Source: a virus | DNA: 26,449 nt | IMG/VR virus record: IMGVR_UViG_3300037635_001418 | Span: 1 to 26,449 of that record | Strand: one strand, 5' to 3' | Shown: positions 1-24,900 of the stretch, piece after piece | Layout of the letters: each line of letters opens with the position of its first letter | Numbering within the stretch: the first letter of the stretch is position 1 | Translations under genes and position numbers: made by a program | The notes under the pieces: generated by a model | Databases searched by the model: none | What the model was told of the DNA's origin: nothing | What the model saw: the letters and a program-made list of their open reading frames with translations, nothing else

Positions 1-426
1 TGTCTTGGACACATATATATTAATAAGCCTTTCTCCCATTTTATCCATAAGATCAGCGGCTTTTCTTAAATCATCTGATTCTCCAACTTCTCCTCCCCAT
101 ACATTATGTATCATATAAAGTGAGTTTTCACTCATTATAACTTCATCAGCAGCTAATGCAACAACACTTGCCATAGATGCAGCTATACCCTCTATACGAG
201 AAGTTACCTTTTGTGGTAATCTGTTTACAGCATCATAGATAGCCAAACCATCTATAACAGAACCACCTGGCGAATTTATTCTTAAAAGAACAGATTTATC
301 TTGTGGAATAGATTTTATTTCATTAATAAAAGATTTGGCATCTACCCCATACATACCTATTTCATCGTAAATCATTACTTCAGCTAGGTTACTTTCAGCA
401 ATGTTTTTTATATTATACCAATTCAT
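1..426 (-). CDS. Head maturation protease, ClpP/S14-like (N-terminal part, cut by window edge)
   Basis: The first 142 codons of a ClpP-fold serine protease read leftward from ATG at 426 and run off the window. Visible motifs are the oxyanion-loop segment INSPGGSV (residues 50-57), GIAASMAS with the candidate catalytic Ser84, and YMIHNVWGG with the candidate catalytic His107; the Asp would lie beyond the edge. In tailed phages such ClpP-like enzymes process the scaffold or capsid during head assembly, so the portal and major capsid genes probably lie to the left. The start codon sits 3 nt after a GTTATATTGT element, suggesting a leaderless late transcript. The phage role rather than a host ClpP role is inferred from the neighbouring phage genes and the sequence divergence from housekeeping ClpP. 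Confidence 0.9.
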   Translation of the reverse strand, partial: MNWYNIKNIAESNLAEVMIYDEIGMYGVDAKSFINEIKSIPQDKSVLLRINSPGGSVIDGLAIYDAVNRLPQKVTSRIEGIAASMASVVALAADEVIMSENSLYMIHNVWGGEVGESDDLRKAADLMDKMGERLINIYVSKT

Positions 427-429
427 ACA

Positions 430-475
430 ACAATATAACAACTAAGTTTTTGTACAGTTTGGAACTTTGTGGAAT
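430..475 (-). promoter_or_regulatory. Late-type promoter-like module upstream of the head protease
   Basis: Read on the minus strand, GTTCCA (465-460) is followed by 18 bp and then TTGTTATATTGT (441-430). The same arrangement occurs at 21685-21650 and 24590-24555. A second copy of the upstream box, ATTCCA, lies at 475-470, ten bp further upstream. The ATG of the protease follows GTTATATTGT after 3 nt. Promoter function is inferred from recurrence, spacing and position. Confidence 0.65.
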
Positions 476-488
476 AAAGTTTATTAAT

Positions 489-531
489 TATAATTTGGAT
501 ATTAAATTTATTGTTCGTTACATTGTAATAC
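489..531 (+). promoter_or_regulatory. Early-type promoter-like module, copy 1
   Basis: A 43-bp segment matches 5541-5583 at 38 positions, with a perfect 19-bp left block containing TTTGG and a perfect GTTACATTGTAATA right block. TTTG (494-497) and TTACATTG (518-525) are separated by 20 bp, as expected for a Bacteroidota -33/-7 promoter. It precedes the first plus-strand gene by about 24 nt and is divergent from the late-type module at 430-475. Confidence 0.65.
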
Positions 532-5545: not shown

Positions 5546-5583
5546 TTTGGATATTAAATAAATTAGTTGTTACATTGTAATAT
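5541..5583 (+). promoter_or_regulatory. Early-type promoter-like module, copy 2 (internal)
   Basis: Matches 489-531 at 38 of 43 positions, including the identical 20-bp spacing between TTTG (5546-5549) and TTACATTG (5570-5577). It overlaps the primase-helicase stop codon and ends at the ATG of the next gene (5582), with only AAT between GTTACATTGT and ATG. It would let the methyltransferase segment be expressed separately. Confidence 0.65.
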
Positions 5584-5764
5584 GACTTGCGAACCTTTTA
5601 TATTAATAACAGTATGTATTTCTTTAGGATTTGCATTGGGAACAATTTTTATAGTTTATCAAACGCATAATGAAATAAAAATGTTAGAAGAAGAGTTAGA
5701 TTATTTTAGAACAAGATACCATGAGTTGTTAAATAATTGGAAAAATAAATATACTGATGATTAA
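5582..5764 (+). CDS. Small membrane protein with coiled coil, 60 aa
   Basis: ATG 5582 is chosen over an in-frame TTG at 5567, because the TTG lies inside the promoter-like element. One hydrophobic segment (residues about 6-26) is followed by a charged helical part (EIKMLEEELDYFRTRYHELLNN) likely to form a coiled coil facing the cytoplasm or periplasm. The architecture is like small phage membrane proteins of unknown role; spanin or superinfection functions cannot be told apart here. Its stop overlaps the methyltransferase start by 8 nt, so the two are coupled. Confidence 0.7.
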   Translation: MTCEPFILITVCISLGFALGTIFIVYQTHNEIKMLEEELDYFRTRYHELLNNWKNKYTDD

Positions 5765-6947
5765 AATAGGAACATTTTTTAGTGGCATAGGAAGTCCAGA
5801 ACAAGCATTAATAAATTTAGATGTAGAGCATGAGGTTACTTTTGCTTGTGAAATAGACAAGTATGCAAGAGAAACATATTTAAAGAATTTCAATCCTAAA
5901 AATATGTATGAAGATATAACTAAATTAGATATGAAAGATTTAGATCCTGTAGATTTATTAGTTTTTGGATTTCCTTGTCAAGCATTTAGTTTAGCAGGTA
6001 GAAGAGGGGGGTTTGATGACACAAGAGGTACTTTGTTTTATGATGCCCTAAGATATTTAATAGAACATAAACCTAAATATTTTATAGGAGAAAATGTAAA
6101 AGGTTTACTAAGTCATGATAATGGAAAAACTTTTAGAACTATTATAGATTGTTTGGCAAAAACAGAAAACAACCAATTTTCTTTAATGCAATTTGATAAT
6201 TTAGGTTATCATATACATTATCAAGTAATGAATACAAGAGATTATGGAGTGCCACAAAATAGAGAAAGAATATTTATTGTAGGAATTAGAGATGATGAAG
6301 ATAATGATTTTAGATTTCCTAAAAATATACCTTTAAAACTTAAATTAAAAGATATTCTAGAGGATAATGTAGATGAAAAATATTTTTTAAGTCAAAGAAT
6401 GGTAGATGGTATTAATAAAAGTAATTTTAGAGAAAGACAACCTATGAGTACAGAAGGTGTTTGTAAAACTTTAAAAGTAGGAGGAGATACTCCTTGCTTT
6501 AAAGATGAAAGAGTGCGAGTTCATAGTTTACATCCAAGAACAAGTAAAACAGGTAAGGGGGGTTCAGGAAGGCTACAGAAAGAAGATGGAACATCATATT
6601 GTTTAGACACAGCTAATTCACAAGCAATAGAAGTAAAAAGTGGTGCTTTAAGGACATTTCCAAGAACTAGTAATCCTGATAAAGATAGAGAAGATGGTAG
6701 AAGTAAAAGATTAGAGCTAAGATCAGATGATGTTGCTAATTCTATAACAACTCATGAATGTGATAGTTTAGTGTATGGGCATAAAAATACTTCTAATATA
6801 AGAAAATTAACACCTATAGAATCTGAAAGACTACAAGGATTTCCTGATAACTTTACTAATGGAGTTAGTGATACTCAAAGGTATAAACAATTAGGTAATA
6901 CAATAACTGTAGATGTAGTGCAATCCGTTATTAAAAATTTAATATAA
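5757..6947 (+). CDS. DNA (cytosine-5) methyltransferase, 396 aa
   Basis: C5-cytosine methyltransferase motifs appear in order: I, FFSGIGSPEQAL (about 7-18, SAM binding); IV, GFPCQAFS with catalytic Cys74; VI, ENVKGL (about 114-119); VIII, QNRERIFIVG (167-176); IX and X, ESERLQGFPDNF and KQLGNTI near the end. Between VIII and IX lies the target-recognition region, which contains two related blocks each starting PRTS (about residues 261 and 302). No restriction endonuclease partner is adjacent, so it is best read as an orphan phage enzyme protecting phage DNA from host restriction. The specificity cannot be read from the sequence. Confidence 0.93.
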   Translation: MIKIGTFFSGIGSPEQALINLDVEHEVTFACEIDKYARETYLKNFNPKNMYEDITKLDMKDLDPVDLLVFGFPCQAFSLAGRRGGFDDTRGTLFYDALRYLIEHKPKYFIGENVKGLLSHDNGKTFRTIIDCLAKTENNQFSLMQFDNLGYHIHYQVMNTRDYGVPQNRERIFIVGIRDDEDNDFRFPKNIPLKLKLKDILEDNVDEKYFLSQRMVDGINKSNFRERQPMSTEGVCKTLKVGGDTPCFKDERVRVHSLHPRTSKTGKGGSGRLQKEDGTSYCLDTANSQAIEVKSGALRTFPRTSNPDKDREDGRSKRLELRSDDVANSITTHECDSLVYGHKNTSNIRKLTPIESERLQGFPDNFTNGVSDTQRYKQLGNTITVDVVQSVIKNLI

Positions 6948-8226: not shown

Positions 8227-8599
8227 ATACCCACTAACAGGAATGGCAAAGCCTAGAATGACTAAGGCTGACACTTGGAAGAAAAGACCTATAGTTTTAA
8301 AGTATTGGGAATATAAAGATAGTATTAAAAATTGGGCTTTTCAAAATAATTTTAGATTAGGAAATGAAATTTATTGCATTTTTCATATACCTATGCCAAA
8401 GTCTTGGAGTTTAAAAAAGAAACAGCAAATGAACTATCAGGATCATCAACAAAGGCCAGATATAGATAATTTACTAAAAGGGTTAATGGATGCCTTGTTA
8501 GAAGAAGATTCCCACATACATACTGTTTATGCAAGAAAAATATGGTCTGAACAAGGTTGTATAGAGTTTTATAAAAAAACTAATCTTTTACTCTCTTAA
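8219..8599 (+). CDS. rusA: RusA-like Holliday junction resolvase, 126 aa
   Basis: The N-terminus has the RusA-type opening (GMAKPRMTKADTWKKRP, Y/W-rich helix), and the core carries RPDIDNLLKGLMDALLEEDS with Asp81 and Asp83 in the family's conserved P-D-x-D-N-x-x-K motif that holds catalytic metal ligands. The length matches the family (about 120 aa). RusA cuts four-way DNA junctions arising during recombination and replication, clearing branched phage DNA before packaging. It is the last gene of the plus-strand operon; its 3' end overlaps the convergent late operon by 20 nt. Confidence 0.85.
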   Translation: MIRYPLTGMAKPRMTKADTWKKRPIVLKYWEYKDSIKNWAFQNNFRLGNEIYCIFHIPMPKSWSLKKKQQMNYQDHQQRPDIDNLLKGLMDALLEEDSHIHTVYARKIWSEQGCIEFYKKTNLLLS

Positions 8600-8903
8600 T
8601 ATTATAATCTTTTTCCCCCTTATATCTTTGTTTATAGATTATATTTCTGCATTGTTTTTCAGTAATATCATGCCTAATAGAAATATCAATAAAAGTATTT
8701 CCTATATGCCCTTCGTTCATAACTATAAACTTATCAAAATCTTGAAACATCATAAAGTTTCTTAATGATTTAGGAGGTATAATCCCATTTTCAATTAAAT
8801 GATATACCAAATCTTTTACTGTAAAATCTTTACCCCATCTTGATTCTGATTGACTTCTAATTATTTCTAAAAAGTCATCAATAACATCTTTTTGATTCGC
8901 CAT
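8580..8903 (-). CDS. Hypothetical phage protein with helix-turn-helix-like end, 107 aa
   Basis: Last gene of the minus-strand late operon. It is mostly helical; residues about 75-97 (ISIRHDITEKQCRNIIYKQR) look like a helix-turn-helix and the tail is basic. A DNA-binding role is possible but unproven, and no family is recognised. It abuts the 78-aa Cys protein, with no gap between them, and its end overlaps the convergent resolvase gene. Confidence 0.7.
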   Translation of the reverse strand: MANQKDVIDDFLEIIRSQSESRWGKDFTVKDLVYHLIENGIIPPKSLRNFMMFQDFDKFIVMNEGHIGNTFIDISIRHDITEKQCRNIIYKQRYKGEKDYNIKRVKD

Positions 8904-9140
8904 CTACTTCCATAATTTTTTTGGGCAATCTATAAAAGATTCATCTATTTTAGTTTTTACTTTTAGGAAACAACCACATTCCCCGCATTTTTCTAAAACT
9001 TTCATTTTTAAAGGATCTTTATAAGAACCACATTTATTACTTCTGCATATTTTCATACGCTTTTCATAAACTTTTTTAGGAGCAAAGTTTAATCCTTCTC
9101 CTATTACTAATTTCCAAAACAATTTTTTTAAATCTTCCAT
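8904..9140 (-). CDS. Small zinc-ribbon-like protein, 78 aa
   Basis: ATG at 9140 is preferred over an in-frame TTG at 9146. Four to five cysteines appear as ICRSNKCGSY, then KCGECGC, then DCPKKLW, a C-x4-C / C-x2-C-x-C / C pattern that is widespread in small proteins beside tail genes of Bacteroidota phages. It lies 22 nt after the tape measure gene. The function is unknown; zinc binding is inferred from the Cys spacing. Confidence 0.75.
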   Translation of the reverse strand: MEDLKKLFWKLVIGEGLNFAPKKVYEKRMKICRSNKCGSYKDPLKMKVLEKCGECGCFLKVKTKIDESFIDCPKKLWK

Positions 9141-17866: not shown

Positions 17867-19290
17867 TATCCTCTTTGTTGTGTTCTAGAATTTGCCAATG
17901 TATATTTAAACTCTATATAATTTACATTATTTTCTGTATTATATATTTCATAACTACCAGGCACTATTTGTACTGCTACTAATTGATACTGTTCTTCTTT
18001 TGCTATATCTTTTATTTTTACTTCTACCCAAACTAAAGGACTTGCTATAAGCTCTTGCAACCAAATAGCTTCTTTATTACTTATAGGCTGTGATATTACA
18101 CTATGAGTATCTTCTCTATTTACCCAAAGCTCTTTTTTACCTCTTAATCCTCTAAATGCTGTTGGATTGTATTTTTCATATCTTGTAGATTTAATAGATA
18201 TTGATTTGCTTTCTGTTCCATAGCAATTAAAAAAATCATAACCTCCTAATGAGTTTTTAAAATGAAATCTTGTTCTTTTACAAGCATCTACTCCTTTATT
18301 ATTATCTCTATCTGTATAAGCAACTTTCATCCATCTTGTTTCTGGATTTCCATCTTCATCAAAACCTCCCCATTGATTAGATGAACTAAAAAGCCCTCCA
18401 GATAATGCAACAATATATATTTCACTAGCAATCAAATTGCCTGAAGCATCAACAATTAAATTAGAAGCTACACCATTTTGATTTAAAATAAATTGTTCTA
18501 ACTGTATTGGATGTAAAGGAATTTTATGCATATTTTCAGTATTACTAGGATAAGATATTTGAACAAATCCACCATTTGTTACAAAACCTGTAGTTCCATT
18601 TCTTACAAAGTAAATCATAGAATTATAACCATTTCTTCCATTAAGATAATATAAAGAAGGAGTCATGTTATCACTAATATCTATAGAAACACCATAATTT
18701 GTTGGATGTTTCTGTGTAAAGTCTAATTGTCCACTATCATAAGTATTACTTGATTGATATGGCATATTGGTTAATGGCTTACAAGTTGCTGTACCACCAT
18801 TATTATAATTTTCTCCCAATACATATCTATCTAAATAGTGATATTGCGATATATCTGAATTTTCTTGTTCATTAGTTGTAGTGTCTGTTGATATAAATGA
18901 AGAAGACTCTACAGAATCGCCTAAATCATCAAAAAGCAACCCTTGTGCTGTATTACTATATCTTACAGGCCATATAACTAGCTTAAATTTAGAAGTTTCA
19001 AAATATCCAGGAATTATAAAATTTAAAAATGATAAAATAACTCCCGTACCTGATCCTATATAAGAACGAGTATATTCCATTACATTAAATTCATAAGTAT
19101 TGTTTTCGTTTTTGTATGCATTTATTAAAACACCTGTACTGCTATATGAATTACTTCCATTTAGTGCTACTAATAATTCTGCTCTTAAAAAAGAAACATC
19201 TGAGTCATTGCAGGATAGACTGCATACTATAGGTCTATAAGCCGCATAAAACTTTCTATAAAAATCTTTTATAAATAGTGGTTTTGCCAT
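17866..19290 (-). CDS. Virion structural protein, tail region, 474 aa
   Basis: Strand-rich, Asn/Ser/Tyr-rich protein of structural type with no enzymatic motif. Distinct segments are FYRKFYAAYRPIVCSLSCND near the start, a Gly/Asn-rich middle, and YNPTAFRGLRGKKELWVNRE near residue 385, followed by WLQELIASPLVWVEVKI, a pattern I associate with flavobacterial phage tail proteins. The TAATG junction couples it to the 1551-aa gene, and the two probably form part of the same tail-tip assembly. A major tail protein or distal tail protein is possible. Confidence 0.65.
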   Translation of the reverse strand: MAKPLFIKDFYRKFYAAYRPIVCSLSCNDSDVSFLRAELLVALNGSNSYSSTGVLINAYKNENNTYEFNVMEYTRSYIGSGTGVILSFLNFIIPGYFETSKFKLVIWPVRYSNTAQGLLFDDLGDSVESSSFISTDTTTNEQENSDISQYHYLDRYVLGENYNNGGTATCKPLTNMPYQSSNTYDSGQLDFTQKHPTNYGVSIDISDNMTPSLYYLNGRNGYNSMIYFVRNGTTGFVTNGGFVQISYPSNTENMHKIPLHPIQLEQFILNQNGVASNLIVDASGNLIASEIYIVALSGGLFSSSNQWGGFDEDGNPETRWMKVAYTDRDNNKGVDACKRTRFHFKNSLGGYDFFNCYGTESKSISIKSTRYEKYNPTAFRGLRGKKELWVNREDTHSVISQPISNKEAIWLQELIASPLVWVEVKIKDIAKEEQYQLVAVQIVPGSYEIYNTENNVNYIEFKYTLANSRTQQRG

Positions 19291-19294
19291 TTTG

Positions 19295-19807
19295 TTATAT
19301 TGTTAAATTTAATTTAGCCATTGTGTCTGCTTGTATCGCTAAAATAGTATCTTGTGTTAATATTTCATTTATTTTATCATCTATCTTTTCTTTAACCTCA
19401 TCCATCCATCCAGGATGTTTTACACCAGAGTTATTTGCTTTTTGTGTTTTAGCAATAGCAAAAGCTGCCTTTAATCCTTTTTTATAATTACCACCATAAA
19501 ACTTTTTAGCTGCCCAAATAGCTAATTGAGTTATATATTGACTATCTGTATAATTACCTCCCTTACCTCTAAATGGCACATCAGTATATCCATCATTTAG
19601 AATTAATCCCTCTTCAAATGACTCTAAAGTTAAATTTGCAAGTCCATTATTTTCTTTTATTTGAAATGTTATGCTATCACTTAACAAACCAAAAGTGTTC
19701 ATAGGAGAATTACCTTTTCTACGAACAGTTAGTCTTTTTTTAGCAATTCTTTCAGCAGCTTGTCCTGATCTTTGTACTAATTTTAATATGTTAGATAATC
19801 TACCCAT
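19295..19807 (-). CDS. Tail completion / head-tail joining-like protein, 170 aa
   Basis: A basic N-terminus (LSNILKLVQRSGQAAERIAKKR) and a core with LSDSITFQIKE, LTLESFEEGLILNDGYTDVP and a long C-terminal helix resemble small neck or tail-completion proteins of the HK97 gp10 type, in which a helix is followed by a strand bearing a conserved 'Y-x-x-x-x-xYG'-like turn. The gene is located before the large tail genes, where such proteins are usual. The call is from architecture and place, not from clear identity. Confidence 0.5.
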   Translation of the reverse strand: MGRLSNILKLVQRSGQAAERIAKKRLTVRRKGNSPMNTFGLLSDSITFQIKENNGLANLTLESFEEGLILNDGYTDVPFRGKGGNYTDSQYITQLAIWAAKKFYGGNYKKGLKAAFAIAKTQKANNSGVKHPGWMDEVKEKIDDKINEILTQDTILAIQADTMAKLNLTI

Positions 19808-20394: not shown

Positions 20395-21242
20395 TTAGCT
20401 AGTTTTCTTGTTTAAATCATTTAATTTCTCTTCATACGAATTACAAGCAGATTTCCAAGATAAATATGTAAATATCTCATATAACTCTGTAATTAACACA
20501 CTTTCCACAGCACTTAGATTGTCTTTTGTAAAAATTCCATCTTTAGCTACATCATAAAGAGAATTTAACCAACCATAACCATCTATTGTGCCTTTTGTTG
20601 CAATTTTTGACTTTCCTTCTCCTCCTTCTCCGTTGAGATTAGGAAATTTAGTGTCAATTTCTGTTCTAACTTGCTCAAAAAAAAACCGACATCCCAAATA
20701 GTTGCCATGTCAAGTTTTTCAAACTTCTTAGCCCTTTCATCTATAAGGGCATCATTTAATTTTTCCTCTTCTCCTTCTTTTTTACATAAAATAGCAATTT
20801 GTCTAGGCAATATTTCTATAATACCATTATCTAACATATTTGCTTGTAATTCTAACTGTTCAGCCTCAATAAATCTACCAAAACTACTTTTAGCCATTAA
20901 ATCTTTAGGTAAATAAAACTTTTCATCGCCTATAGTAAAAGAATCTATATTTATTGGAGTATATTTTTCTCCAACCCAACTTAGCTTACTCATAATGTCA
21001 TTTGCAACATCTAAATCCATCATGCTTATTTCATCTTCTGAAACGCCTAACCAAAAAGACAAAACTTTAGTATTTTGCTTTAAATCATTTAAAGTTTGTT
21101 GATATTCATTATCAGTTTCATCTTCTTTATTAGAAGCTAATTTATCTGATAACCTTACGAAAGCTAAAAACTTTCCATAAGTACATTCTTCCCATGAAGA
21201 TGGAAATGTTACTTTATTGTCGTTTAAAATATATGATTCCAT
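20395..21242 (-). CDS. Predicted -1 frameshift fusion of the tail-chaperone-like gene, about 282 aa
   Basis: Shifting -1 in the T9 run (minus strand 20685-20677) joins the first 188 codons to a 94-codon extension ending at 20395. The extension has a plausible folded sequence (GTIDGYGWLNSLYDVAKDG, VESVLITELYEIFTYLSWKS) but contains no ATG at all; only a TTG at 20697 just before the slip site could start it independently. This is the pattern of a gpG/gpGT-type frameshift. A homopolymer sequencing or assembly error, or a natural indel making one 282-aa gene, would look similar. Confidence 0.6.
20583..21242 (-). CDS. Tail-assembly-chaperone-like protein, short product, 219 aa
   Basis: Reads from ATG 21242. 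The opening FPSSWEECTYGKFLAFVRLS, the middle IDSFTIGDEKFYLPKDLM and the segment ILPRQIAILCKKEGEEEKL followed by KFEKLDMATIWDVGFFLSK follow a layout I associate with tail chaperone-type proteins of Bacteroidota phages. At codons 186-189 (GGT TTT TTT TTG) a T9 run gives a canonical -1 slip site; without slipping translation goes on for about 30 low-complexity residues to the stop at 20583. The fused product is listed separately. In siphophages such pairs coat the tape measure protein before tail tube assembly. Confidence 0.7.
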   Translation of the reverse strand: MESYILNDNKVTFPSSWEECTYGKFLAFVRLSDKLASNKEDETDNEYQQTLNDLKQNTKVLSFWLGVSEDEISMMDLDVANDIMSKLSWVGEKYTPINIDSFTIGDEKFYLPKDLMAKSSFGRFIEAEQLELQANMLDNGIIEILPRQIAILCKKEGEEEKLNDALIDERAKKFEKLDMATIWDVGFFLSKLEQKLTLNFLISTEKEEKESQKLQQKAQ

Positions 21243-21646
21243 TAGTTTAAATTTATTTTATATTCTTTTTCTGTAAATGGATGTATTAATATGCTTTCAT
21301 TTAATTCATCTAACACATCTAAAGTCAAAGATAATAGTTTTTCTTCACAATAATATACATCTTCATTTTGATTTAATTGTAAATTAGCCAAATAACCCTT
21401 TGTGGCCCAATATAAATTGTTAGGCAAAGATACAAACCAATCTCTACGATTAACTAATCCTTCTGAAACATATTTGCTTAATCCATTGTGATAATCTATA
21501 ACATTTAAGACTAAAACTTCATATCCAACATAATCTTCGTTAAAAAAAGTAGAAGAGTCCATTAAATTTTGAACTTTAGTTAAATAATCATTTATTATAA
21601 CAGAATGTCTGTTATTTAAAAAATATATTTCTTCTTTGTACGACAT
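21242..21646 (-). CDS. Hypothetical late protein, 134 aa
   Basis: ATG 21646 is chosen; an in-frame TTG at 21661 lies inside the promoter-like element. The protein is helical and rich in Asn/Leu/Tyr (YEVLVLNVIDYHNGLSKYVS, CEEKLLSLTLDVLDELNES). No family is recognised. It has its own late-type promoter-like module ending 3 nt before the ATG and shares one base with the next gene, so it opens the tail transcript behind the large terminase gene. Confidence 0.7.
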   Translation of the reverse strand: MSYKEEIYFLNNRHSVIINDYLTKVQNLMDSSTFFNEDYVGYEVLVLNVIDYHNGLSKYVSEGLVNRRDWFVSLPNNLYWATKGYLANLQLNQNEDVYYCEEKLLSLTLDVLDELNESILIHPFTEKEYKINLN

Positions 21647-21649
21647 CTT

Positions 21650-21685
21650 ACAATATAACAAATAACCTTTGGAACTTTATGGAAC
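21650..21685 (-). promoter_or_regulatory. Late-type promoter-like module upstream of the tail cluster
   Basis: On the minus strand GTTCCA (21685-21680), 18 bp, TTGTTATATTGT (21661-21650), then AAG and the ATG. A second GTTCCA lies at 21675-21670, ten bp closer. The upstream flank TTTTTGTTCCA is also found at the small terminase module with the same spacing. Confidence 0.65.
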
Positions 21686-21699
21686 AAAAAGTTAGTTTT

Positions 21700-23019
21700 T
21701 TACCTCCAAGCCATAATTCGCTTGTTATTTTTAAACATATATCTCATTCTCATCATTAAAGCATCTGCAAAATCAGGAGAATGTCCTAATACAGCTTTCA
21801 TTTCTTTTTTTGATAAAATAGCGAGTTTATTATCATTATCCATGTTTTTTCTTCTTATAACCTCTAATTCTTCTATAATTTTGTTTCTTAAATCAGTATC
21901 ATTACATTTTATCCAAACATTACCTACATTTATCTGTTCAGCTAACTTATAATAACATTGTGTTTTTAAGTTTTGATAATTTTCTTTATTAAGAGGTTTT
22001 GAATTATTTACAAAAGGTTGGACTCCTTTCATGTAATGTGAGAGATATTGCCCTACTCCATCACTATCAATTATGATGTTTTTCTGTGGTATTTTGTGCG
22101 TATCTGCCAAGTTTCTTATCAATTTCTCCACATTATCAGCAGATGTCTTGTCTTTTGTTACTATTTCCTCAACTATTAACCCATTCCACACACAAATAAC
22201 CAATTTATCACTACCTAATAAGGCAATATCACAAGAAAGATACTTTTCAGAGTTATCTGAAGTAACTTTTGAGTTAGTAAACACATCTAAAACAGCTTCA
22301 TAGTCAAATAGTCTATCTTCTCCTGAATCATACTCCCAATTACCATGTAAAAGCCTTTCCCTTGAAACAGGATCAAGTTTTTTTAGTTGTTCTTCGTAAA
22401 ATTCTGAAATATGAGGGTTGTCAACTAATTTTGCTTGTACAAACTTTTTATGTGTTGGCAAAGTTTCATCTCTATTTTGTTTATAGAAGTCATAAACCCA
22501 ATTTTTTGATGGATTACAACTCATTAACACTTTTGGGCGTAAATTATATTCTGCAAGTTTAAATCTTATCCTAGAAGCCACTACATTTTTTGCTTTTTCA
22601 GTACATTGGTTCACTTCATCAATAAATGCACCAGAAATTTCCAATGAACCAAGTGAATCAAAGTTTGGATCAGCAGGATATTGAAATAAGTCTTTTAAAA
22701 GAATTGTACTGCCATTTTGGAACTCTATGACATTACTTTGGGCATTAAATTTATAAGTTTCTCCTTTTTTAACTCCCCAATCACTACAAACCATAAAAAA
22801 AGAATTTAAAGTAGTTTCTTTTAATGTTTTTAGTGTAGCTCTACCCATTAACCATCTAGTTCCTGGAAAACGAAGGCAAGAATATAAAAGCCATGCAGCT
22901 CCAAAATAAGATTTACCTCCACCAGCACTTCCTCCAAATAAAATTTCGGATGTAGTGTCATCATGTAAATATTCCCAAGCTAGATGTTGCTTTTTTGTTG
23001 GTTTAAAATTTATTTCCAA
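21700..23019 (-). CDS. terL: Terminase large subunit, 439 aa
   Basis: The DNA-packaging motor ATPase and nuclease. Walker A GGSAGGGKS is at residues 29-37; the Walker B-like ISGAFIDEVNQ follows at about 130; the C-terminal RNase H-like nuclease has candidate acidic residues in LSCDIALLG (about 263), IIIDSDGVG (about 318) and SPDFADALMMR (about 418). The length is typical. The apparent start is TTG at 23019, overlapping the 59-aa gene; no ATG occurs before the Walker A motif, so TTG or another rare start must be used. It acts at the portal vertex with the small subunit encoded at 24530. Confidence 0.93.
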   Translation of the reverse strand: MEINFKPTKKQHLAWEYLHDDTTSEILFGGSAGGGKSYFGAAWLLYSCLRFPGTRWLMGRATLKTLKETTLNSFFMVCSDWGVKKGETYKFNAQSNVIEFQNGSTILLKDLFQYPADPNFDSLGSLEISGAFIDEVNQCTEKAKNVVASRIRFKLAEYNLRPKVLMSCNPSKNWVYDFYKQNRDETLPTHKKFVQAKLVDNPHISEFYEEQLKKLDPVSRERLLHGNWEYDSGEDRLFDYEAVLDVFTNSKVTSDNSEKYLSCDIALLGSDKLVICVWNGLIVEEIVTKDKTSADNVEKLIRNLADTHKIPQKNIIIDSDGVGQYLSHYMKGVQPFVNNSKPLNKENYQNLKTQCYYKLAEQINVGNVWIKCNDTDLRNKIIEELEVIRRKNMDNDNKLAILSKKEMKAVLGHSPDFADALMMRMRYMFKNNKRIMAWR

Positions 23020-24014: not shown

Positions 24015-24530
24015 CTATGTTTTGTCAGAAGGACTCTCATAATTAAATACAAAACTATCTCCACCACTAGTTAAATCAACCCTATCAACAACTATACCTT
24101 TCATCTTTGCAACATCTTGCAATAACAATCTGCATAAATTCAAATCTCCAGACTTATATGACTTACTATATAAATCTTGTAACATGATTTGATGCTTATC
24201 AATCTCATACTCTCTTTCCTCTGAAAATTGCTCTGCAAAACTTTCTAATGCTTTTTTATAATAAATACTAGCCATCCTTCTTTTAATACCCCAATGAGCC
24301 TCACAATATTCCATTATATCTGTATACCTTATACCTCTCAATATTAGCTTTACCACTTCAGTCGTTCTTTTATAACTCACAAGACTTGTTGCCTTACCTG
24401 AACTCTTATTTAAGTCCAAATCACTTGGATTATATTTTGAAACTACTGTGCTAATAATTTTCTCATCTTCTTTTTTTTGCAATAGCTTGGCATTTCTTTT
24501 GTCAGCCCTTTCTTGATCCCTTTTATTCAT
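24015..24530 (-). CDS. terS: Terminase small subunit-like protein, 171 aa
   Basis: A very basic N-terminus (residues 1-25) is followed by a helix-turn-helix part, VVKLILRGIRYTDIMEYCEA with RRMASIYYKKALE as recognition helix (about 61-95), then a long helix region (HQIMLQDLYSKSYKSGDLNL) of oligomerisation type and an acidic end. This is the usual layout of small terminases, which bind the packaging site and hand DNA to the large subunit. It is the first gene of the late operon behind a late-type promoter-like module, and the large terminase lies two genes downstream. Family identity is inferred from layout and context. Confidence 0.7.
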   Translation of the reverse strand: MNKRDQERADKRNAKLLQKKEDEKIISTVVSKYNPSDLDLNKSSGKATSLVSYKRTTEVVKLILRGIRYTDIMEYCEAHWGIKRRMASIYYKKALESFAEQFSEEREYEIDKHQIMLQDLYSKSYKSGDLNLCRLLLQDVAKMKGIVVDRVDLTSGGDSFVFNYESPSDKT

Positions 24531-24554
24531 ATTGTAAAGTTACATTATTTATGC

Positions 24555-24590
24555 ACAATATAACAAATAATAAATAATATAGTTTGGAAC
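24555..24590 (-). promoter_or_regulatory. Late-type promoter-like module upstream of small terminase
   Basis: On the minus strand GTTCCA (24590-24585), 18 bp, TTGTTATATTGT (24566-24555). Unlike the other two late modules the ATG lies about 24 nt further downstream, so this transcript would have a short leader. It is the presumed main start of the late operon. Confidence 0.65.
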
Positions 24591-24900
24591 AAAAATATAT
24601 ATTATGCAGTTGGTGTAATAAAAGTTCAAAATCCGAAAATCTAGTGTGAATATTAGACTACCCCTAAATCACCCCCCAATTACGTAAATCAAAACACTAA
24701 TTTTTTGAGCCTCAAAGTTTTAAAATATTTTAATTTTTTTTAAATTTTTTTACAATTTTTTTTTTTGATCCTCCAGTTTTTGGACGTTTTTTGATTTTTT
24801 TTTGTGTCATCTTGCACCATATCCAAATTAAAATAAGGCTTTTTTAATGTCTTTTTTTGTTGCAATTAGTGTAAAACAACTTTTAAAGATGTAAGACATA
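24591..24900. other. Intergenic, very AT-rich, homopolymer-rich stretch
   Basis: No confident gene. The stretch holds long A/T runs and a few C runs (for example around 24668-24674), a possible 26-codon basic peptide on the minus strand listed separately, and no recognisable RNA. It separates the late operon from the accessory cluster and could hold packaging or replication signals. Confidence 0.5.
24730..24810 (-). pseudogene. Possible 26-aa basic peptide or gene remnant
   Basis: ATG 24810 opens 26 codons whose product begins MTQKKIKKRPKTGGSKKK. The KRPKTGG-x-KK pattern recalls the N-terminus of phage small terminase or related DNA-binding proteins, usually followed by GTPNK, which is absent; the frame instead dissolves into poly-Lys. 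It may be the stub of a decayed gene or only a consequence of A-rich sequence. Confidence 0.25.

Follow-up and report, generated by a model that had tools for sequence, protein, structure and literature searches.

A putative activator-dependent late promoter in a family of marine, probably flavobacterial phages

Introduction

Which signal starts the late genes of the phage behind IMG/VR record IMGVR_UViG_3300037635_001418, and which protein reads it? In the stretch analysed here (positions 1 to 26,449 of that record, 26,449 nucleotides, hereafter the window), a two-part element stands before three genes of the late strand, and an earlier note took it for a phage-specific late promoter. Late-gene switching of Bacteroidota phages seems little described: searches of the open-access literature (subscription journals aside) listed no paper on the subject, and the accessible part of the report on the flavobacterial phage vB_TgeS_JQ (PMC11267871) holds nothing on late promoters. 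With the element, a regulon could be recognised directly in metagenomic contigs and a role open to experiment assigned to an orphan protein family; it would also test the use of leaderless mRNAs by phages in hosts whose transcripts mostly carry leaders (PMC6847099, accessible part).

Three copies of the element in the window

The sites and their genes are as follows.

24555..24590 (−): predicted late promoter A (small terminase); TTCC at 24589–24586, −7 box TTATATTG at 24563–24556, start predicted near 24551, which would give a leader of about 20 nt
24015..24530 (−): presumed small terminase, 171 aa, so called from its position before the large terminase and from reading only
21700..23019 (−): large terminase (PHROG 2, E 1.2e-38), which served as motif-blind query
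21650..21685 (−): predicted late promoter B; TTCC at 21684–21681 and 21674–21671, −7 box at 21658–21651, predicted start 21646, the A of the ATG
21242..21646 (−): gene B, encoding 134 aa, without a match to any family
430..474 (−): predicted late promoter C (head protease); TTCC at 474–471 and 464–461, −7 box at 438–431, predicted start 426, the A of the ATG
1..426 (−): head maturation protease (PHROG 133, E 1.4e-54), cut by the window end

The pattern GTTCCA-N18-TTGTTATATTGT has exactly three exact matches in the window (430–465, 21650–21685, and 24555–24590), all on the late (−) strand, which bears out the earlier claim of one element before three late modules, on the same strand and with 18-bp spacing. 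Site A precedes the small terminase (an ORF with one weak match, to a PHROG whose function is unknown), site B the gene after the large terminase, and site C the head protease. At up to three mismatches the only other match lies at 19268–19303 (+), with three; the resulting four matches compare with 0.12 expected, and four were reached in 0 of 100 shuffles. A second TTCC lies exactly 10 bp from the first, downstream at B and upstream at C, so there is more to the left half than a single GTTCCA: the hexamer originally named does match exactly, but as part of a phased TTCC repeat. The ATG of gene B (21646) and that of the protease (426) both begin 3 nt past the final motif base.

Two features of the surrounding DNA may be recorded here. 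Mechanical ORF calls at 21661 and 441 (−) begin at a TTG within the promoter (MLYCKMSYK… and MLYCCMNWY…), so gene callers may put the starts of gene B and the protease inside the −7 region. Just upstream of site A (24601–24621, −) lies a conserved inverted repeat that resembles DnaA boxes; it reads TTATTACACnnnTGCAYAAT in near phages and TTATGCACATTGTGTAAT in far phages, and the window also encodes a DnaA-C-like protein (2422–2841). Rfam and tRNA scans of the stretches submitted gave no matches.

Conservation in near relatives and in a motif-blind sample

A weight matrix was built from 29 distinct 36-mers of near relatives, some of them supplied by the genomes then scored. By this matrix the window, G010, G015, G017, G028, G003, and G012, all near genomes, have exactly three strong sites apiece (36.0–46.3 bits), and the next-best score in these seven is 18.7 bits. 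No further strong site lay inside a gene in these seven, contrary to the equal intragenic frequency that the earlier note had named as its counter-case, and in the long near relatives, where it had proposed to search, the copies precede the same three genes. Counts over the near genomes are not independent, since several of these genomes nearly duplicate one another (window/G010/G021; G015/G004). G037 and G019 each have one strong site plus a weak one (18.8 and 14.7 bits), and G036 has two strong sites and one at 15.7 bits; the five far genomes and phage 11b have no matrix site of at least 8 bits. In G037, G019, G044, G035, and G038 the protease is directly preceded by another coding sequence and not by the promoter.

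Scanning viral contigs for the exact motif returned 33 stretches, six of which carry two copies 2.8–2.9 kb apart, matching the A-to-B distance in the window. Among 30 exact-motif records, G013 was set aside because it looks like a chance match with no start codon after it; a reversed-pattern control gave one match in the 30 (G019). By large terminase identity, the cultured relatives are Flavobacterium phage 11b (51%), Cellulophaga phi10:1 (46.5%), and Polaribacter P12002L/S (36%).

For a sample blind to the motif, 80 loci were chosen from 150 relatives by the large terminase alone, and clustering of the 79 with 3′ flank at 97% nucleotide identity left 49 representatives. In all 49 the terminase is soon followed by a −7-like box and a start codon. 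Among the 31 with terminase identity of at least 84%, TTCC lies at −38..−35 in 30 and a second TTCC at −28..−25 in 24 (positions are numbered with the last G of the −7 box as −5, after the F. johnsoniae study, so that TTCC at −48 corresponds to a TTCC-to-G length of 44 and TTCC at −38 to one of 34). The other 18 representatives are more distant, and TTCC or TTCT stands at 44 in 16 of them. At site A, the strict form TTCC-N22/23-TATATT was found in 20 of the 23 distinct regions whose TerL identity is at least 84% and in 2 of the 12 below that threshold; a canonical promoter nested in site A was considered and dropped, being present in only 6 of the 23 regions.

Over 30 full-length representatives (one of the 31 was omitted for its short terminase), TTCC has a mean pairwise identity of 0.98 and the box, itself the anchor of the alignment, one of 0.99, against 0.56 for the spacer and 0.60 for third codon positions of the terminase. 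That the element is without function, a product of chance or of common descent of the flanking DNA, is hardly credible: the relatives do have common ancestry, but the element occurs at three separate loci, its conservation is far above that of third codon positions and spacer, and the exact spacing recurs at independent sites B and D of the distant group described below. A conserved class of predicted late promoters with an unusual upstream element is, on the sequence comparisons, well supported.

A shared −7 box and a different upstream element

In F. johnsoniae promoters, according to the accessible part of that study (PMC6847099), T-12, A-11, T-8, T-7, T-6, and G-5 are nearly invariant, the box lies 4 or 5 nt from the start, and the −33 motif is weak in general. 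Judged against this pattern, the right half of the element reads as a Bacteroidota-type −7 box, the likeness first noticed by the earlier note. The late boxes of near phages have the sequence TATATTG, which lacks one T of TAnnTTTG, and distant C boxes read TAnnTTTTG or similar.

The same note held that the left half is not the usual TTTG, and here the early strand supplies the comparison.

494..525 (+): divergent early promoter, TTTG-N21-TACATTG, with a leader of about 25 nt to the ATG at 555
5546..5577 (+): second early-strand promoter, TTTG-N21-TACATTG, 4 nt before the ATG at 5582, predicted leaderless

Between the protease and the early operon, the early strand carries TTTG-N19..22-TAnn(T)TTG in 14 of 15 genomes, while columns −36 and −35 of site B are C in all 30 representatives, so that no TTTG fits at the −33 place. 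Early and late promoters thus have the same kind of box and differ in their upstream element. The late sites appear to share with the Bacteroidota housekeeping (sigma-ABfr) promoter, TTTG/TAnnTTTG, the kind of −7 box, and would share the box-to-start distance expected from F. johnsoniae; they differ from it in that a TTCC repeat replaces the −33 TTTG and the box is often one T shorter (TAnnTTG).

Helical phasing and a distant group of phages

The left element is a direct repeat of TTCC with a 10-bp period, and in most of the sites tested TTCC lies 44 or 34 nt from the box G, a spacing kept even between phages whose proteins are mostly 25–45% identical. At site C, all eight near genomes have TTCC at both 44 and 34; near B sites use 34 and 24, and near A sites 34. 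In the five far genomes, site C carries TTCC at 44 and 34 in G034 and G040 (with a third copy at 54 in G034), at 34 in G033, and at neither distance in G031 and G032. Where the box nearest the ATG is taken at site C (near genomes, G034, G040, and G033), the only lengths are 54, 44, 34, and 24. From site to site the repeat is therefore displaced in steps of 10 nt, by whole turns of the helix. Site A copies at 44 nt with two mismatches were read by eye in G051, G052, and G055.

A further comparison was opened by one protein of the late strand.

8580..8903 (−): p107, 107 aa, candidate late activator with a C-terminal helix-turn-helix

The protein occurs in both the near and the distant phage group. 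With p107 as query, at least 435 loci were found in IMG/VR, and 80 were kept as the distant group, whose proteins are mostly 25–45% identical to those of G010, the near twin of the window. In all 77 loci with enough flank, p107 directly precedes the protease promoter and a protease-like start follows p107 within 160 nt; the protease was recognised here by a W[YF] pattern near its start rather than by homology, which was checked in eight distant genomes (39–41%) and four loci. Among the distinct p107–protease gaps, TTCC is present in 40 of 41 and the TTCC-to-G length is 44 in 38 of the 39 measured. The eight long distant genomes contain 18 exact TTCCWAAAACTKC operators against 0.07 expected, 17 of them with a TTG ending exactly at 44. 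Eight of them lie at site C, six at site B (two of these placed there because their leaders are alike), and four at a divergent site D; because operator and spacing were first read from site C, only the copies at B and D count as independent. The exact spacing of the signal across many relatives, often with the signal directly against the first codon, points to what is probably a virus-specific late switch, and the predictions of the earlier promoter reading that sequence could test (the same three genes, no extra sites, the box types) came out as expected.

Promoter D was located at L408:1310–1425 (−), L424:8682–8797 (+), and ten other loci. Its predicted transcript opens with a conserved hairpin before a gene starting MFKF; the hairpin has 12 pairs, two of which are kept through two-sided changes in 4 of 12 sequences. 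A 361-aa protein (G010 35385–36470) has 68–71% identity in all eight distant genomes, far above the usual 25–45%, yet is absent from the five far genomes, and was thus likely exchanged between groups.

From these patterns we favour, at a probability of roughly 0.58, an activator-dependent late promoter in this marine, probably flavobacterial phage family. Host RNA polymerase with the Bacteroidota housekeeping sigma would read the −7 box; in place of the missing −33 box, the TTCC direct repeat, with its 10-bp period on one helix face, would be bound by a phage activator that holds the polymerase there, and the late operons would start only once that activator, most likely p107, had been made.

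Two other readings of the repeat bear on its phasing. An alternative sigma factor, host ECF-type or phage-encoded, might read TTCC and box together with no separate activator, and two blocks at a fixed spacing do look sigma-specific. We regard this as improbable, since the late box is of the same kind as that of the early promoter, the TTCC-to-box distance occurs in two registers 10 nt apart, both of which one sigma would hardly accept, and no sigma-like protein was found among the window proteins scanned; one weak sigma-70 match (E 0.016) appeared in 1 of 26 p107 members. TTCC might instead be a repressor site through which ordinary sigma-A promoters, with a weak −33 box, are shut off early. 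The generally weak −33 motif of F. johnsoniae (PMC6847099, accessible part) would favour this, as absence of TTTG then need not mean inactivity, but a repeat upstream of the box, on one helical face and in whole-turn registers, is typical of activators, and TTCC overlaps neither box nor start in any site tested. A repressor is accordingly very improbable.

Predicted leaderless layout

At B and C of near phages the box lies 4–5 nt before the ATG, which predicts leaderless late mRNAs; under the activator-dependent reading, transcripts from near B and C and from distant C would begin on or within 1–2 bases of the start codon. Distances from TTG to ATG at site B in the 49 representatives are 4 (29), 5 (12), 6 (5), and 0–1 nt (3), the last three arising from a second TTG in the gap and being 4 by eye. 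At distant site C, the G-to-ATG distance is 5 nt in 33 of 40 gaps, 6 nt in five, and other in two. Predicted leaders of about 20–28 nt are found at near A, far C, and distant B.

The layout extends beyond these sites. In 14 genomes, −7-like boxes before ORF starts form a spike at 4 nt, with 34 matches from 10 gene families against 1–12 matches at each of the remaining offsets between 0 and 39; in 15 genomes, TAnnTTG stands 4 nt before 19 of 744 starts, against 0.2 expected from internal ATGs. Early- and late-strand genes both contribute to the spike, which means that promoters other than the late ones have this layout too. To our knowledge, Bacteroidota are a phylum without Shine–Dalgarno sequences. 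In the accessible parts of the two studies concerned, leaders exceed 10 nt in 87% of F. johnsoniae transcripts with a probable promoter (PMC6847099), and leaderless genes are given for 1 of 37 Bacteroidetes/Chlorobi genomes, where the authors call their method limited (PMC3160421).

Candidate readers of the TTCC repeat

The choice of p107 as the most likely activator draws on its distribution and on a faint family resemblance. Outside the virion and packaging blocks, the G010 genes present in near, far, and all eight distant genomes are p107 and two encoding proteins of 99 and 130 aa, which we read as SSB-like and ERF-like (these are not database calls). The HTH replication protein, the DnaA-C-like protein, p180, the primase, and RusA do not share the 8/8 occurrence of p107. 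An operator-seeded scan gave 60 stretches, including 26 contigs of at least 24 kb; p107 is present in 12 of the 14 with TA at the box position and in 0 of the 12 without, although six of those 12 p107-bearing contigs were already known through p107. Its place next to the protease may be mere gene order, and as a product of the late strand it could itself be late.

Across 26 sequences p107 retains 48–97% identity, and its model is a helical protein (pLDDT 87.7). It has no match at E ≤ 0.01 among 50,697 phage records, and of 44 pattern matches to p107 relatives in 84,980 host genomes none was confirmed. Its most frequent weak Pfam match is Mor (PF08765; 16 of 26 members, best E 0.0071), and a lower E (0.00029) is reached by Arif-1, an unrelated family that matches five of the 26. 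PF08765 passes the Pfam cut-off for p107 in none of eight genomes (best per-genome E 7e-4), and the same search also matches in 9 of 14 control genomes. Compared with 13 Mor-family sequences, the p107 profile scores 24.4, exceeded by 1 of 300 column-permuted profiles; as the aligned part is the helix-turn-helix, a generic likeness of such folds may suffice. By structure (VIA-align), Mu C (9l0x) ranks tenth, level with other HTH proteins at Z 5.3 over 50 residues, and Foldseek gave no match to the model at E ≤ 0.001, so that neither comparison singles out one family. Two HTH repeats inside p107 were also considered and discarded, its halves aligning over 9 columns only. We regard p107 as the candidate late activator, with weak likeness to Mu Mor/C; its membership of the Mor/C family is not established. 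That p107 founds a large family of Bacteroidota-phage late activators, which would recruit the housekeeping polymerase from turn-shifting TTCC repeats to leaderless starts, we put forward tentatively, a little short of even odds.

The same promoter class could have another reader, such as a sigma-binding protein, an unrecognised early protein, a host regulator, or the protein encoded just before p107, with p107 itself otherwise employed.

8904..9140 (−): p80, cysteine-rich protein of 78 aa

The weakness of the match between p107 and a transcription activator family leaves room for this, the SSB-like and ERF-like proteins are as conserved as p107, and p80 is a cysteine-rich neighbour with the pattern C-x4-C … C-x2-C-x-C … C, its cysteines invariant in 27 sequences; it is a relative of PHROG 13558 (function unknown). 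We nevertheless judge another reader unlikely, though far from negligible: p80 was found in 4 of 8 distant operator-carrying genomes against 8 of 8 for p107, the operator occurs near phage genes only, within what was scanned, and it accompanies p107 in 12 of 14 contigs. By eye, a −7-like box abuts the ATG of p80 in most of the 32 rows.

Two further proteins were rejected as regulators, neither being found in the distant group: p180 (1908–2450; pLDDT 86.9, no PDB match at E ≤ 0.001) and the DnaA-C-like protein (2422–2841; PF08299, E 2.3e-6, under the cut-off). The window also encodes a C5-cytosine DNA methylase (5757–6947, +; PF00145, E 1.9e-78), with relatives in some near genomes only.

Comparison with known phage promoters

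By analogy, the late element would work in layout like the Mu Mor/C or lambda CII promoters. CII promoters carry a TTGC direct repeat with a 10-bp step around −35, on one helical face; a direct repeat with that step near −35 is also found here, with TTCC in place of TTGC, a likeness of layout only. The P2 Ogr and T4 MotA factors redirect host polymerase at promoters lacking a −35 element, from other sites and positions than those seen here, and Ogr is a small cysteine protein encoded after the tail genes, as is p80. At the middle (Mor) and late (C) promoters of Mu, the −10 is kept and a phage activator site replaces the −35, the Mor site being an inverted repeat of 5-bp arms centred at −43.5 (PMC4390567, PMC4461284, accessible parts). 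Here too the box is kept and the upstream element swapped, and the distant-group operator (−48..−35) is centred at −41.5, but phylum, sigma, and sequence differ and the repeat is direct. No dyad-symmetric site takes the place of the −35 in the near or distant sites, although a few mid-clade B sites do show TTCC…GGAA; in L036, L110, L111, L107, and L108, site B has an inverted TTTCC…GGAAT or TTTCC…GAAAG at an unchanged distance from the box.
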